The translations under genes were made by a program, and so were the position numbers. A model generated the notes under the pieces. The model did no database searches and was not told where the DNA came from. It saw nothing but the letters and a program-made list of their open reading frames with translations. Positions 9,417 to 24,185 of a stretch of DNA of 64,000 nt are shown here, one piece after another. Source of the DNA: an uncultured Dehalococcoidia bacterium (GTDB lineage Bacteria > Chloroflexota > Dehalococcoidia > Lucifugimonadales > UBA3495); the NCBI GenBank assembly GCA_958296445.1, contig OY282565.1, positions 3,459,570 to 3,523,569 on the forward strand, in the 5' to 3' direction. Every line of letters begins with the position of its first letter. The first letter of the stretch is position 1.

Positions 9417-9679
9417 CCTAAACCTGCCTGCCAAACCGGAGGCTAATATACACCTTCCAAAAGGATATGCGGAAAACCCGGCCGTTTGTCATTCTGTACT
9501 TCCGCCGTCTGTCCCTAATAAGCGACGTACGTCATTCTAAGCGCCACCTGTCATTCTGAGCAAAGTGAAGAATCCAGGCTTGGGCGGTGAGGCCCTTCGC
9601 TTTGCTCAGGGTGACAAGGGGGAATACTAAGGGTGACAAAGGGCAATTTCGCAATCGTCTTATCCTAAATAAATCGGCG
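9417..9679. repeat. Intergenic repeats including GTCATTCTGAGCAAAGTGAAGAATCC
   Basis: About 260 bases without a gene. A copy of the GTCATTCTGAGC unit begins near 9549, and a complementary segment CTTCGCTTTGCTCAGGGTGAC follows at about 9595-9615, giving a long imperfect hairpin. Three further GTCATTCT starts lie at 9485-9550. One TTATCC (9660) resembles half a DnaA box but stands alone. Confidence 0.6.
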
Positions 9680-14159: not shown

Positions 14160-15074
14160 ATGAAACTGGCGCTTTTCGACGATTTCCGGCTGGGAGTGAT
14201 TGAGGGAGAGCGGATTGCCGATGCTATGTCCGCGGTGGAGGGGATGAGTTTCCGGCGGCCCCAAGACTTGATGGAGGAAGTCATTATCAACTGGAGCGAG
14301 CTGCGGCCCCGTATCGAAGCGGCTATCGAGGGGCAGGATGGCGCGGCTCTGGGCAGCGTGCGGCTGCGCCCGCCGGTGCCGCGCCCGCCCAAGCTCATCT
14401 GCGCCGCGGTCAACTACCTAGAGTTCGGGCAGCGGGAGCCGGCAGTGCTGGACGCCTTTCTGAAGTCGCCCACGGCGGTCATCGGCAGCGGCGACACCTG
14501 CGAACTGCCCCCGGCCCCGGCGTCGGTCTTTCACCACGAGCCGGAACTGGCCTTCGTCATTGGCCGCGAGGCCAGCAAGGTGGAGCAGGACGACGCCCTT
14601 TCCTACATTTTCGGCTACACCAACTTTCTGGATATGTCGGCCCGCGGGCTGCGCGGCGCGGTGGGGAACAGCTTCTTTCTGGGCAAGTGCTGGGATACCT
14701 TCGCGCCTATGGGCCCGGCGCTGGTCACCGCCGACGAAATTGCCGACCCGCAGGAGCTTCAAGTGCGGCTGTGGAACAACGGAGAGCCGCGCCACGACTT
14801 CCCAACCAGCGATATGGCCCATAAGATTCCCGAACTGATTTCGGAAATCTCGAAAATCACCACACTGGAGCCGGGCGACGTTATCGCTACCGGCGTCAAC
14901 CACCAGCACATCGGCGCCGTACAGAACGGCGACGTGCTGCGAATGGAAATCGAGGGCCTCGGCCCGCCCCTGATTATCAACATATCCGACCCGTCCGCCC
15001 GCGAGTGGCCGCGGGGCATAGACACGGAGTTTGCGGCAATGATAATCGCCGGCGCCCCGGCCCAGCGGGGATAG
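14160..15074 (+). CDS. Fumarylacetoacetate hydrolase family protein
   Basis: 304 residues. ATG 14160 follows GGGAGGG. FAH-family C-terminal domain: KLICAAVNYLEFGQ (near 81), HHEPELAFVIGREASKV with the metal-binding E-x-E pattern (near 124), SYIFGYTNFLDMSARG, KCWDTFAPMGPALV (near 180), and LEPGDVIATGVNHQHIG (near 240). These enzymes cleave C-C bonds or isomerise/decarboxylate 2-oxo acids using a divalent cation. Substrate not determined; the TGxNHQHIG end differs from the commoner TGTPxGVG. Confidence 0.8.
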   Translation: MKLALFDDFRLGVIEGERIADAMSAVEGMSFRRPQDLMEEVIINWSELRPRIEAAIEGQDGAALGSVRLRPPVPRPPKLICAAVNYLEFGQREPAVLDAFLKSPTAVIGSGDTCELPPAPASVFHHEPELAFVIGREASKVEQDDALSYIFGYTNFLDMSARGLRGAVGNSFFLGKCWDTFAPMGPALVTADEIADPQELQVRLWNNGEPRHDFPTSDMAHKIPELISEISKITTLEPGDVIATGVNHQHIGAVQNGDVLRMEIEGLGPPLIINISDPSAREWPRGIDTEFAAMIIAGAPAQRG

Positions 15075-15104
15075 CGGGCGGGCGGCAACTGGCCGGGCGG
15101 AACC

Positions 15105-15160
15105 AGTTTGTCCTGAGCTTGTCGAAAGATGAACGGGTTTCGCCCGTAAGGGCAAGGCCG
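15105..15160. repeat. GTCCTGAGCTTGTCGAAAG palindromic repeat
   Basis: Member of the CCTTCGACAAGCTCAGGAC family. Other members at about 26420, 27993 (inside lysC), 31510 and 22528 (inside the DapA-MfnB fusion). Confidence 0.75.
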
Positions 15161-15277
15161 GGCGGGAGCCAATTGCGGATACGGGGCGGCGGGCGTATCA
15201 TCCTTAATAGGCAATTGCGGACAATTCCGGGGCGAGGCATCCCCGGCCACCGTGGAGGAATCAGCGAGAGAGTAGCA

Positions 15278-16378
15278 ATGACTAGAATTAACGACATCAC
15301 TGACCTGGTTCGGATCTTGAGAGAGCATCCCGATTGGCTTGACGTGATTCGCGGCATACTGTTCAGCAGGGATATGCTGAATCTGCCGATTCAAGTTACC
15401 GAGCTTGTTGAGTTGGTCACCGAGGATACCCGTCAGACCAGCGAACTCATCCGGCTGGTTAGCGAACTTACCATGCTAATGGGCGAACTCGCCCAGCAGA
15501 CTGGCGAGAACATCCGGTTGACCGGCGAACTCGCCCAGCAGACTGGTGAGAACATCCGGTTTACTGGCGAACTCGCCCAGCACGTTACCGGGCTTGCCCA
15601 ACAGGTTGCCGGGCTCGCCCAGCAGGTTACCGGGCTTGCCCAGCACGTTACCGGGCTCACTCAACAAGCTACCGGGTTTGCCGAACAGGTTACCGGGCTT
15701 ACTGAACAGGTTGCCGGGCTTACTCAGCAGGTTACCGGGCTTGCCGAACAGGTTACCGGGCTTGCCCAGCACGTTACCGGGCTTGCCGAACAGGTTGCCG
15801 GGCTTGCCGAACAAGTTGCCGGGCTTGCCGAACAAGTTACCGGGCTTGCCGAACAAGTTACCGGGCTTGCCCAAGCGGTACAAGAAAATCAGCGGGCCAG
15901 TCAGCAAGAATCGGAAAGAGTCCATAGGAGGCTCAACCTGATTGATGGCCGGTTGGGGAATCTGGAGGGCAGCGACTTCGAGCGAAAGGTGCGGTACAGG
16001 GTGTTGTCTCGCGCCCGGAGCCGGTTTGGGTTGGATAATCCCTACTTGGCGTTGACCCAGAACGACCCGGAAGCGCCTCAGCTCAGCAGCGCCATCGCGC
16101 GGGCCGTCAACGGCGGCGCTATCTCCCGGGAAGAGGCCGACGACCTTGCGGATACCGACATCATCGTTTCCGGCCAAGACAACCGCCACGTCGCGGCGGA
16201 AGTTTCCCTCACCGCCGGCAACGATGACATCGCCCGCGCCAAAGCCCGCGCCGAGGCACTGAGCAAGGCTACCGGAGGCGCCGTTACTCCGCTGGTCGTA
16301 ACCACCGTCCTGGATGGGCCGCAACACGAACTGGCTATCGCCGAGGGAGTGGCTACGCTTATCCTCCCGTATCCCTAA
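15278..16378 (+). CDS. Heptad-repeat coiled-coil protein with a PD-(D/E)xK nuclease-like C-terminus
   Basis: 366 residues. ATG 15278 lies in AGTAGCAATG. Residues 1-65 are helical; two 14-residue units GELAQQTGENIR follow, then about 14 exact heptads of the type GLAEQVT (residues about 100-200), encoded by near-identical 21-bp DNA repeats. After a hinge (QENQRASQQESERV) comes a globular domain of about 150 residues with DTDIIVSG, HVAAEVSLT and GVATLI. This matches the restriction-endonuclease-like proteins (DUF3782-like), with D...ExS replacing D...ExK. The Lys-to-Ser change makes catalysis uncertain. Substrate and partners unknown. Confidence 0.7.
   Translation: MTRINDITDLVRILREHPDWLDVIRGILFSRDMLNLPIQVTELVELVTEDTRQTSELIRLVSELTMLMGELAQQTGENIRLTGELAQQTGENIRFTGELAQHVTGLAQQVAGLAQQVTGLAQHVTGLTQQATGFAEQVTGLTEQVAGLTQQVTGLAEQVTGLAQHVTGLAEQVAGLAEQVAGLAEQVTGLAEQVTGLAQAVQENQRASQQESERVHRRLNLIDGRLGNLEGSDFERKVRYRVLSRARSRFGLDNPYLALTQNDPEAPQLSSAIARAVNGGAISREEADDLADTDIIVSGQDNRHVAAEVSLTAGNDDIARAKARAEALSKATGGAVTPLVVTTVLDGPQHELAIAEGVATLILPYP
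15572..15880 (+). repeat. 21-bp tandem repeat, about 14.7 units, coding
   Basis: Units such as CAGGTTACCGGGCTTGCCGA repeat in frame; each codes one coiled-coil heptad. Neighbouring units differ by only one to three bases, so length change by slippage or recombination would keep the frame. Confidence 0.85.
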
Positions 16379-20303: not shown

Positions 20304-20711
20304 ATGACATCACCGCTCTCTGACAAAGAAGCCGCCGGTAATCACGTTTTCCATTGTCAGCAGTATATGGATAATGCTCTTGAAGCACTGCAAAAAAACG
20401 AGCCGGGCAAGGCCGGCGAAATGCTGTGGGGCAGCATCGCCCAGGCTGTCCACGCCGTGGACGCTTGGCGCGGCCCGGTGATTCAGAACCACCGCGGGTT
20501 GCTGAACTTCGCTACGCGGATTGGACGGGAAATTGGCGATCCCCATTTTCCCAACAGTTTCCAATCAGCGAAAAGCCTTCACAATAACTTCTATATCCCG
20601 GTGGAAACCGTAGAGGAAGTCGAAGTTCTGATACCGGGCATCCGGCAGGCCATCGCCCAGATTCTGGCCCTGCTGCCCGATGAGGCCCGCAACGGAACGG
20701 CGGCGGGATAG
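20304..20711 (+). CDS. PaREP1/HEPN-like small helical protein
   Basis: 135 residues. ATG 20304 with AGAGGA at -12. Pattern QYMDNALEALQKNEPGKAGEMLWGSIAQAVHAVDAWRG, then LLNFATRI and LHNNFYIPVETVEEVEVLIPGIRQAI. The same scheme occurs in three other genes here (40126, 43865, 44291): an N-terminal helix pair, A-W/G-A-A-x-A-hydrophobic-K/H-A-V-A, and a C-terminal helix. This is the PaREP1/HEPN-type fold, often an RNase or accessory part of toxin-antitoxin or defence modules. No catalytic RxxxxH motif is clear here. Function unknown. Confidence 0.6.
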   Translation: MTSPLSDKEAAGNHVFHCQQYMDNALEALQKNEPGKAGEMLWGSIAQAVHAVDAWRGPVIQNHRGLLNFATRIGREIGDPHFPNSFQSAKSLHNNFYIPVETVEEVEVLIPGIRQAIAQILALLPDEARNGTAAG

Positions 20712-20894: not shown

Positions 20895-21200
20895 ATGTCA
20901 AACGAAATCGAGCAACTGCGGCGGGAATTTTACGCCTTGCCCAAGACCAGCCCTCACGGGATGGAGCAGCAAATACGGCATCCCGATATTCGCCCGGAAT
21001 GGATAATGCGCATTATCAAAAATCCTTACGAAAGATGGCTGGATCGAAACCAGACAATACTGGCCGGGCGTGTGCCGGAATTCAACCGCTGGATTAAAGT
21101 TGTGTTCACCGGAAGTCCTGAATCCGGCTTTTTCCATACTGCCTATGCGGACAGACGGCTTGAAAGCGACTACGGAGGCAGACCATGGACAGAAAGATAA
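20895..21200 (+). CDS. Small toxin-like protein (DUF4258-like), paired with the next gene
   Basis: 101 residues. HPDIRPEWIMRIIKNPYERWLDRNQTILAGRVPEFNRWIKVVFTGSPESGFFHTAYADRRL matches small proteins in which a helix with HI/WI..I..P is followed by a beta sheet and a final hydrophobic-x-x-A-x-x-D/R strand. They usually stand directly before a DUF2283 gene, as here (16-base overlap). A toxin-antitoxin role is suspected for such pairs but is not shown by this sequence. Confidence 0.55.
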   Translation: MSNEIEQLRREFYALPKTSPHGMEQQIRHPDIRPEWIMRIIKNPYERWLDRNQTILAGRVPEFNRWIKVVFTGSPESGFFHTAYADRRLESDYGGRPWTER

Positions 21201-21442
21201 TCACCAGCCGGGGCCGGGTAATACAGCCATTGCCCCAGGCCAAAGTAACCTACACCCCCTCAACCCAAACCCTGTGCCTGCAAATGGGGGCGCGTAAGGA
21301 TGGCGAGGACATCGCTGACGGAGTGACTGTGTTCTACGGCGAGGACGATAGCGTTGTCGGTATTGACATCGAACGGGCCGAGGAGTTGCTCAAGCCATTT
21401 ATAGACGCAGTGTTGGAACGCCGGGCCGCCGCCGCATCATAA
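21185..21442 (+). CDS. DUF2283 family small protein
   Basis: 85 residues. VTYTPSTQTLCLQMG, GVTVFYGEDDSVVGIDIERAEELL is the DUF2283 pattern (tyrosine/aspartate strand, DxxGxxxGIEI helix start). The start overlaps the end of the preceding gene in another frame, implying coupling. Likely partner of the 20895 product. The fusion gene follows after 12 bases, which include the ribosome site AAGGAGG. Confidence 0.65.
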   Translation: MDRKIITSRGRVIQPLPQAKVTYTPSTQTLCLQMGARKDGEDIADGVTVFYGEDDSVVGIDIERAEELLKPFIDAVLERRAAAAS

Positions 21443-21454
21443 GGAGGTCACATT

Positions 21455-23593
21455 ATGGCATCCTACCGGAAGCACGAAGCCCAGGAATGGGCTTGGGAAT
21501 CCCTGAAAGGCCAGTGGACTACCCTGATAACCCCTTTCACTCCCGACAACCGCTTTGACCGGGAGGGGATGCGGCGCAACATACGCCACATCCGCAGTCT
21601 GGGAACCGCCGGGGCCGGCTGCGCCTGGGGCATGGGCGAGTTCTGGAGCCTGACCCACGAGGAACGTCTGGACGTGATGGACACCGTCGCCGAGGAAGCC
21701 CAGCGTTCCTATGGCAACGGCGTTTGGCCCATCGGCGCCCACGTTACCCATACCTCGGCCCCGGAGATGCTGTCGCTGGCGGCTCACGCCGAGGGCCGCG
21801 GCTACGACCTGCTCATCGTCGCCCCGCCTTATATGGTGACCAAAACCGAAGACCAAGTGGTGGAATACGTCCGGCTGCTGGCCGAGCATACCAACCTCGC
21901 CATAATGTTCTACAACTCCCCGCAGTTCGGCATCACTATGAGCGTCAACGGGCTGGCTCGGCTGTGCCGTCTGCCCAACGTGGTGGGCGTCAAAGAGGCC
22001 AGCTTCAACCAGCAGATTTCCATTGAGGCCCACCTTACCCTAGGGCGGGAGGCCATCATCAGCACGCCCGACGAATGGATTTTTTTCAAGGGGCAGGAGC
22101 TGGGGATTAACCAGCAGGTGATGTTCGCCAACACCTCCGATTGGCGTTTCGACGTTCCGGGGGCCAACAACTATGTGCGCTGGATTGACCATGCCACTCA
22201 GGGCAACTTGGATGAAACCTTCTACGATGACCACCTGCGCCGCCTAAACGAGCTTTCCGACGCTTGGTGGACTCGCACTGTGGACAAATACAACGGCGCA
22301 TTGCCAGTCTCGCTGGTGAAGTATTGGGGCGAGCTGATGGGAATGGCCGCCGGGCCGCCCCGCCTGCCGCTGCTGGATCTGACCGGCGAAGAAAAGGCCC
22401 GGCTGCGGCAGGAACTGGAGCCGCTGAAGCCTCGCGTTTCCCCGCTCCCCCAAGCGGCGGCTTATGGGCAGCCGCCAACCTATGCCCAGCCAAGCGCCCC
22501 GGTTCGCCCAGAACCAGCCGCCTCTGCCCGTCCTGAGCCGGTCGAAGGGCGGACGGTTTTCGCCCAACCGTCCCCTCGCGCCGCCTGGCTCACGGGCAAC
22601 GACAACTTCGCCGCCGGTATGCTGCTAATGGTCAGCGTCCAGAACGTGGAGGAAGCACTGGAGGCCGAGCAGGGCGGGGCCGACGTGGTGGACGTGAAAA
22701 ACCTGCAAGAGGCGATGGTCGGCTCCGGCCACCCCTCCACCGTGCGCCAGGTGCGGGGCATCATCCCGGTGGAGAAGCACGTCAGCGTCACTCTGGGCGT
22801 GGTTCCCAATCAGGCCGGAACCGTGGCTATGGCGGTCTATGCCGCCGCTATGATGGACGCCACTTCGGTCAAGGTGGGGTTCCGGGTGGCCGACTATGAC
22901 ACCGCGGTGGAAGTCCTGCGGGAATCCCGCCGCGCTCTGGACGGGTTCAACACCAAGCTGGTCGGCTCGCTGTTCGCCGACAACGAGCTTTATGAGGGCG
23001 GGCTGGACCCTCACCTGATGGTGCAGTTGGCGAAAGACAGCGAATGCGACGGCTTTCTCATAGATACCTTGACCAAAGACGGGCGCAACCTGTTCGACTT
23101 TATGCCGGAGCCGGTGCTGCGCGACATTGTGTTGCAGGGCAAGCAGTTGGGGATGAGCACCGCGCTGTCGGGCCACCTGAAAATCAGCGACCTGGATGAA
23201 CTGGCCCGCATCAATCCCGACATAGTAGGGGTGCGCGGCGCGGTCTGCGCTTCCGGCGACCGGGGCCGGGCCGTGGCTTGGGAAGCCGTGGCGGAATTCA
23301 AGCGGCAGCTTGACCTCCGCAAGAGCGGCGAGGTGAGCGTTCACGCCGACGCCCCGCCGGTATCCGGGGCCGGCGGCTGGGTAGTCATTGACGGCCGGGG
23401 CAAAAGCTGCGCCGGGGTCATCGCCGCCCTGAGCCGCCAGATGGAGCAGGACAGGCAATCCTTCGTCGAGGCCATTCTCGCCGACGCCCTGAACATATAC
23501 GACGTGGTGCTGTGGGCCGAACAGGCCGGCCACCGCCTGCTAACCCAGCGCAAAGACCCCGACGGCGCCGTCCGCGTGCTGATTCAGCCCTGA
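21455..23593 (+). CDS. Three-domain fusion: DapA-family aldolase + MfnB (DUF556) + TusA-like domain
   Basis: 712 residues. Domain 1 (about 10-325) is a dihydrodipicolinate-synthase-family TIM barrel: FYNSP with the catalytic Tyr and VVGVKEAS with the Schiff-base Lys. Linker (about 325-385) is Pro/Ala/Gln-rich and contains RPEPVEG, coded by a palindromic repeat. Domain 2 (about 385-620) matches (5-formylfuran-3-yl)methyl phosphate synthase: VVDVKNLQEA (D-x-K pair), SVKVGF, and IDTLTKDGRNLFDFM (D-x3-K pair). Domain 3 (about 640-712) looks like a TusA/SirA sulfur-carrier fold: VVIDGRGKSCAGV, QAGHRLL, RVLIQP, with one Cys. Known MfnB makes the furan core of methanofuran from two glyceraldehyde-3-phosphates. 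The combination suggests a multi-step pathway in one chain; its product is unknown. ATG 21455 after AAGGAGG. speD and speE follow. Confidence 0.75.
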   Translation: MASYRKHEAQEWAWESLKGQWTTLITPFTPDNRFDREGMRRNIRHIRSLGTAGAGCAWGMGEFWSLTHEERLDVMDTVAEEAQRSYGNGVWPIGAHVTHTSAPEMLSLAAHAEGRGYDLLIVAPPYMVTKTEDQVVEYVRLLAEHTNLAIMFYNSPQFGITMSVNGLARLCRLPNVVGVKEASFNQQISIEAHLTLGREAIISTPDEWIFFKGQELGINQQVMFANTSDWRFDVPGANNYVRWIDHATQGNLDETFYDDHLRRLNELSDAWWTRTVDKYNGALPVSLVKYWGELMGMAAGPPRLPLLDLTGEEKARLRQELEPLKPRVSPLPQAAAYGQPPTYAQPSAPVRPEPAASARPEPVEGRTVFAQPSPRAAWLTGNDNFAAGMLLMVSVQNVEEALEAEQGGADVVDVKNLQEAMVGSGHPSTVRQVRGIIPVEKHVSVTLGVVPNQAGTVAMAVYAAAMMDATSVKVGFRVADYDTAVEVLRESRRALDGFNTKLVGSLFADNELYEGGLDPHLMVQLAKDSECDGFLIDTLTKDGRNLFDFMPEPVLRDIVLQGKQLGMSTALSGHLKISDLDELARINPDIVGVRGAVCASGDRGRAVAWEAVAEFKRQLDLRKSGEVSVHADAPPVSGAGGWVVIDGRGKSCAGVIAALSRQMEQDRQSFVEAILADALNIYDVVLWAEQAGHRLLTQRKDPDGAVRVLIQP
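22524..22552 (+). repeat. Palindromic repeat inside the fusion gene, coding RPEPVEG
   Basis: CGTCCTGAGCCGGTCGAAGG resembles the dispersed CCTGAGCTTGTCGAAGG family. It falls exactly in the linker between the DapA-like and MfnB domains and keeps the frame. Confidence 0.7.
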
Positions 23594-23627
23594 ATCCCCG
23601 GCCCGCCCCAAATTCCCGCCCGTCTAA

Positions 23628-23660
23628 TCAATTCCCGCCCTTTTAGAGGGCGGGAATTGA
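23628..23660 (+). terminator. Strong hairpin between the fusion gene and speD
   Basis: TCAATTCCCGCCC (23628-23640), loop TTTTAGA, GGGCGGGAATTGA (23648-23660): perfect 13-bp stem. Thirty-five bases after the fusion stop and about 160 before speD. No downstream T tract, so it could be a terminator, a processing site or a regulatory structure. Confidence 0.6.
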
Positions 23661-23819
23661 TCCAAATCCGCCCCGGACGCCCATACTGGGGCCGATAGAC
23701 ATAAAATTGGGTATTGATTACCGGGGGCTGCCAATATAAAATTGTAGCCATTGTCGCCCACCACCAAAACAAACCTAAGGAGCGACGCAAACTTATGACA
23801 TAAAGGGAGGACTGGTGGA

Positions 23820-24185
23820 TTGACGGTTCTAGGTTGTCATGTCTTGCTGGAACTGAGGGACTGTAACCCCACCCTGCTCAACGACCTCAACTACATACGT
23901 CAGGCGATGCTGACGGCCGCGCGTGACGTAGGCGCCACAGTCGTCGGGGAATCCTTTCACCGCTTCAGCCCCCAAGGCGTCACCGGAATCCTCGCCATCG
24001 CCGAGTCCCACATCTCGATACACACTTGGCCGGAACACGCCTACGCCGCCGCCGACATCTTTTCCTGCGGCTCGTCTTTCTTGCCTCGGGAGGCGGCGCA
24101 GCGGCTGGCGGCGCAGTTGGAGTCGCGGGACGCCGAAATCAAGGAGATTGAACGGGGATTGATACCTCAGCCCGTCACCGGCTGA
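23820..24185 (+). CDS. speD: S-adenosylmethionine decarboxylase proenzyme (SpeH/SpeD type)
   Basis: 121 residues, the short Thermotoga/Bacillus-type class. The self-cleavage site is E62-S63 in AESHISIHTWPEHAYAA; Ser63 becomes the pyruvoyl group. His68 and Cys83 (DIFSCGSS) are the processing and catalytic residues expected. It makes decarboxylated AdoMet, the aminopropyl donor for SpeE, whose gene follows 11 bases later. Start is TTG 23820: no ATG or GTG is in frame upstream and AAAGGGAGG ends nine bases before it. Acts in the cytosol in spermidine synthesis. Confidence 0.9.
   Translation: MTVLGCHVLLELRDCNPTLLNDLNYIRQAMLTAARDVGATVVGESFHRFSPQGVTGILAIAESHISIHTWPEHAYAAADIFSCGSSFLPREAAQRLAAQLESRDAEIKEIERGLIPQPVTG

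Follow-up and report, generated by a model that had tools for sequence, protein, structure and literature searches.

MfnB, the (5-formylfuran-3-yl)methyl phosphate synthase represented by MJ1099 (PDB 4rc1 and 4u9p), is the described enzyme closest to the core of the protein analyzed here; in MJ1099, we take Lys27 to form the Schiff base and Lys85 to be the acid/base. For sulfur insertion at a barrel, ThiG–ThiS and BexX–CysO are working analogs. K155 of MJ1099 is a substrate-binding residue (PMC11365854), and TusA-family carriers have a conserved CPxP motif at the Cys that carries the sulfur (PMC11073785). The SAR202 clade has been reported to account for 10–30% of deep-sea planktonic prokaryotes (PMC10444878).

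In a 64-kb window of a 4.0-Mb SAR202-clade Chloroflexota genome (all coordinates are positions in this window, with the strand as given), the gene at 21455..23593 (+) is a single uninterrupted ORF of 712 codons. A Shine–Dalgarno-like AAGGAGG (21441..21447, +), read directly, lies 7 nt 5′ of the ATG at 21455. The 712-aa product comprises a DapA-like barrel, a linker, an MfnB-like barrel, a second linker and a TusA-like domain, and the identities and order of these domains, as proposed in a first-pass annotation, proved correct by Pfam, profile comparison and structure models. The constituent domains are of known kinds. Their combination, for which the annotation had known no described protein, is without description in the literature searched: no paper was found in the open-licence literature for MfnB with TusA or SAR202 with methanofuran, and the SAR202 literature searched mentioned neither TusA nor methanofuran.

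The MfnB-type TIM barrel (4-HFC-P synthase; aa 389–619; 22619..23311, +) was the most strongly matched domain. Within aa 385–620, where a DUF556 domain had been expected, the DUF556/4HFCP_synth family (PF04476) matched aa 391–615 with E 5e-55 and 187 bits against a gathering score of 22.4. The PDB match of this domain by phmmer was MJ1099/MfnB (E 4e-42, 39% identity), and it has the same fold, superposing on MJ1099 with VIA Z 34 and an rmsd of 1.8 Å for 234 residues, where the next family reached Z 20.6. By alignment, D413/K415/K473/D537/K541/R603 of the fusion correspond to D25/K27/K85/D151/K155/R217 of MJ1099; the first five are invariant in 102 of 102 distinct members and R603 is invariant too. 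The motifs VVDVKN and DTLTKDGRN, singled out earlier as paired Asp/Lys motifs, indeed hold the catalytic D413, K415, D537 and K541. The SAR202 protein differs from MfnB at pocket positions D61, P29 and S188 (MJ1099 numbering), which are V449, L417 and H574 in all 102 distinct members when compared with six MfnB sequences from Methanocaldococcus, Streptomyces, Azospirillum, Thiodictyon and Cupriavidus. The altered pocket implies a changed substrate or product, and it could be that no furan is made at all. The NCBIfam equivalog cut-offs for 5-formylfuran-3-yl methyl phosphate synthase were not reached (191 bits versus 341 and 180 versus 304), which is weak evidence because two proteobacterial homologs in bona fide contexts miss them likewise. 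MfnB homologs also occur on Streptomyces plasmids (L173:7980-11274 and L177:6001-9277), where proteins 57–59% identical to the M. jannaschii enzyme adjoin aldehyde and alcohol dehydrogenases, which suggests another furan pathway outside C1 metabolism.

The first domain (aa 1–330; 21455..22444, +) is a class I aldolase domain of the DapA/NAL/KDGDH superfamily. DHDPS (PF00701) matched aa 18–322 with E 3e-27 and 95 bits against a gathering score of 22.1, the PDB matches by phmmer were DapA/NAL enzymes, and the TIM barrel superposed on DHDPS/NAL with Foldseek TMt of 0.82–0.84. Tyr153 (codon 21911–21913, +) and the Schiff-base Lys180 (codon 21992–21994, +) are invariant in 100 of 100 distinct sequences in the alignment, and the barrel has a conserved Trp-rich pocket. 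Unlike in the superfamily at large, the C-terminal third diverges (NTSDWRFD, SDxWW), and the GTTGE motif of DapA is replaced by GMGEFW or NMGEFW; the GEFWSL motif presumably resembles that of KDGDH. None of the NCBIfam equivalog cut-offs for DapA-superfamily functions was reached by this domain, the top match being KDGDH (PRK03620, 95.7 bits versus a cut-off of 278), with DapA proper (TIGR00674) at 72.7 bits versus 206. An ordinary DapA is encoded separately in the same genome (L002).

The TusA-fold domain (aa 642–712; 23378..23590, +) forms the C-terminal end. In the window protein, TusA (PF01206) matched aa 644–711 with E 2e-4 and 21.7 bits, under the cut-off of 28.6, while the orthologous domains of six relatives scored above it (28.8–30.3 bits). 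Comparison of the family's C-terminal domain with canonical SAR202 TusA by hhalign gave a probability of 89% (E 2.4e-6), versus <1% for reversed and column-shuffled controls. In an AlphaFold model of MfnB–TusA (mean pLDDT 83.9), residues 640–712, the proposed TusA-like end, show the β-α-β-α-β-β order of TusA; a fold search with this model returned a match list occupied by TIM barrels. D646, G647, G649, C652, D683 and H693 are invariant among distinct members, so the domain shares with TusA both its secondary-structure order and its Cys, Asp, Gly, Asp and His landmarks. It departs from the TusA family in being joined to MfnB in every member found and in lacking CPxP: Cys652 (codon 23408–23410, +) is kept in 102 of 102 distinct members and Pro stands next to it in 0 of 102, the dipeptide being CA. 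The segment GRGKSCAGV, on which the TusA assignment had partly rested, thus does hold the TusA cysteine, but with Ala in place of the CPxP Pro. This is a TusA fold that retains its Cys after the signature motif is gone. Two more divergent TusA-like matches lie elsewhere in the window's genome (G000:C1:1635032-1635933), one of them in a 579-aa frame, and similar pairs are found in G001, G052, G055 and G071.

Between the barrels, the linker (about aa 331–388; 22445..22618, +) is length-variable and predicted to be disordered, with pLDDT <50 at aa 331–385 in the predicted structure. The model of the full fusion had a pTM of 0.50, too low for the relative domain placement to be read from it. The linker contains, in frame, a copy of a dispersed repeat, CCTGAGCnnGTCGAAGG (22532..22549, +), coding RPEPVEG. 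This repeat has six copies in the window versus 0.07 expected, the others being at 9593, 15112, 26415, 27993 and 31509, and it codes RPEPVEG or FDKLRTN depending on frame and strand.

The same architecture recurs in related genomes across the order at 62–89% identity, which shows that the fusion is not a chance event. The best 80 relatives in a GTDB scan all came from SAR202/Dehalococcoidia MAGs of the Chloroflexota; the scan used subfamily-typical peptide patterns, which distant versions elsewhere could escape. Differently titled records (two Actinomycetota among the top GTDB records and one Planctomycetota) fell inside the SAR202 tree or were near-identical to members, and are probably mislabeled. 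At the class level, the MfnB–TusA profile matched 10 of 245 genomes, nine as true pairs and one by the TusA part only; in a sample spread evenly over the phylum, PF04476 was found in the window's own genome only, and the viral contigs searched held no relatives. About three quarters of 99 relatives have the pair, leaving about a quarter of the order members without it.

Linkage of the two parts is fixed. Of the 149 loci whose flanking DNA was long enough to tell (drawn from several collections, in which some records repeat the same genomes), all 149 have a DapA-like partner, fused in 92 and directly upstream in 57; in these split loci, both genes share a strand and are separated by −115 to 229 nt. 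The sole locus with no adjoining DapA-like gene is at a contig edge. MfnB without the TusA tail was never seen in the SAR202 loci examined. The system is better viewed as two units, DapA-like and MfnB–TusA, of which MfnB–TusA is the core. A single change, on a branch with SH-aLRT 97%, accounts for the fused state on the tree, which was built from 97 distinct concatenated sequences. What had been called a triple fusion is, given the prior linkage and the single change, a one-time joining of two already adjacent genes: three domains do share one chain here, but in many SAR202 lineages the two units are separate neighboring genes.

In the split-gene loci, the MfnB core had a median pairwise identity of 72%, the DapA-like protein 61% and the TusA end 57%, compared to 46% for RecG, 49% for PheA, 45% for DegV, 42% for TrkH and 36% for FakA encoded nearby; UbiD, at 60%, was similar to the DapA-like protein. 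Conservation above most neighbors suggests that strong purifying selection acts on a core enzyme and points to a core biosynthetic role. Together with the invariant DapA/MfnB–TusA linkage, this selection supports the earlier proposal of a dedicated pathway. The recurring surroundings look like general genome order: one set of families has recG, fakA, degV, pheA, trk and ubiD, and the window's own family has acs, a mutM-like gene and others. No pathway-specific or sulfur-transfer neighbor was conserved across the loci compared.

The MfnB assignment raises methanofuran (methylofuran) synthesis as a function. The MfnB catalytic residues are kept, in its favor, but its equivalog cut-offs were not reached, and Ftr (TIGR03119) and Mch (TIGR03120) were found in 0 of 79 relatives, the window's genome included, as was DUF447_N above cut-off, while the positive controls matched in each search. 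DUF447_N does accompany MfnB in two proteobacterial plasmids. The absence of all three from 79 relatives argues against methanofuran for C1 transfer as the product, and we rejected this function as extremely unlikely. Lacking the other methanofuran machinery, SAR202 probably uses the enzyme to make an undescribed compound. The protein thus differs from MJ1099 in its added TusA-fold domain and DapA-like partner as well as in having no methanofuran pathway around it; MfnB chemistry appears to have been put to use beyond methanofuran synthesis, and the occurrence of MfnB outside C1 metabolism is of note in its own right.

We tentatively favor, at somewhat less than even odds, an orphan two-aldolase SAR202 enzyme for a furan-type (or related) metabolite. 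Its observed basis is the architecture, the catalytic residues that are invariant in each Schiff-base barrel, the fixed linkage, the conservation and the absence of C1 genes; the substrates, the order of steps, the role of the Cys/thiol domain and the product are what we infer. By analogy to Lys27 and Lys85 of MJ1099, the MfnB-type barrel, with Lys415 as the Schiff base and Lys473 as acid/base, would condense two molecules of a triose phosphate, or one with a different small carbonyl compound, to give a furan-carbaldehyde phosphate or a close analog. The DapA-like barrel (Lys180 and Tyr153) would carry out an adjacent step that extends or supplies the furan aldehyde with a 2-oxo acid such as pyruvate, most simply by an aldol-type condensation. 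On its flexible linker, the TusA-fold tail may present Cys652 to the barrel to carry sulfur or substrate, or may be a regulatory domain, and the gene fusion in one subclade would hold both active sites together. Confirmation of both barrels by profile and fold, and the separate ordinary DapA in the genome, speak for two aldolases; against are the lack of a conserved pathway-specific neighbor, the missed equivalog cut-offs and the quarter or so of the order without the pair.

A protein that is simply a two-aldolase enzyme, with the TusA fold serving as a non-sulfur oligomerization or regulatory domain, is a doubtful though sizable possibility: CPxP is lost in all members and conservation is lower in the tail than in the barrel (57% versus 72%), yet the Cys and the other TusA landmarks have stayed unchanged across deep divergence, and a purely structural role needs none of them. 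That same invariance of Cys652, D646, G647, G649, D683 and H693 would instead suit a ThiG/ThiS-like sulfur insertion, with a thio-heterocycle or thiosugar formed at the Schiff-base barrel from sulfur that a Cys652 persulfide donates in cis. The TusA homology is real, as the six relatives above cut-off and the hhalign comparison attest, and the MfnB domain is never without it in SAR202 loci; this reading is nevertheless unlikely, as CPxP is lost in every member with Pro never next to the Cys, and no sulfur-transfer gene is conserved alongside. The sulfur-modified furan suggested by the first-pass annotation fits the invariant Cys but is speculation, with CPxP lost in 102 of 102 members and the MfnB pocket altered in all. 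Its boldest form, in which one chain would make an undescribed sulfur-containing SAR202 cofactor of furan or thiophene type, its two aldolase barrels building the carbon skeleton and its in-cis TusA-fold Cys giving the sulfur, is quite improbable; if true, it would join ThiG–ThiS and BexX–CysO as a third kind of pairing between a sulfur carrier and a barrel.

Turning to the first barrel, its top NCBIfam match and its GEFWSL motif would fit a catabolic role, in which a KDGDH-like dehydratase works with an aldolase on sugar acids; functions of this class have been proposed as expanded in SAR202. This is very unlikely, since the score is far under the cut-off, no sugar-acid gene is conserved nearby and, unlike an accessory catabolic gene, this one is conserved far above its neighbors. 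A clade-wide protein better conserved than RecG suggests that one of the largest bacterial groups of the ocean has a metabolite or cofactor yet to be described, and because a single gene encodes this soluble enzyme, its function is directly testable in vitro.

Around the gene in the window, the polyamine genes that follow it had been noted in the first-pass annotation. A polyamine linkage was rejected: speE was nearby in only 5 of 41 loci and in the same direction in 2, both within the window's genus. A perfect hairpin of about 14–16 bp with no T tract (23627..23661, +) lies between the fusion and speD, in a region (23594–23820) that folds more stably than shuffles (z −4.2), and the strong hairpin makes a separate transcription unit likely. 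Just upstream of the fusion are a PaREP1-family gene (20304–20711), an unassigned ORF (20895–21200) and a DUF2283 gene (21185–21442) whose stop codon abuts the fusion's Shine–Dalgarno sequence; this PaREP1/DUF2283 region is possibly a toxin–antitoxin-like pair. Farther upstream, the ORF at 15005–16378 encodes many 7-residue repeats (QVTGLAQ/E) in a long coiled-coil-like region.
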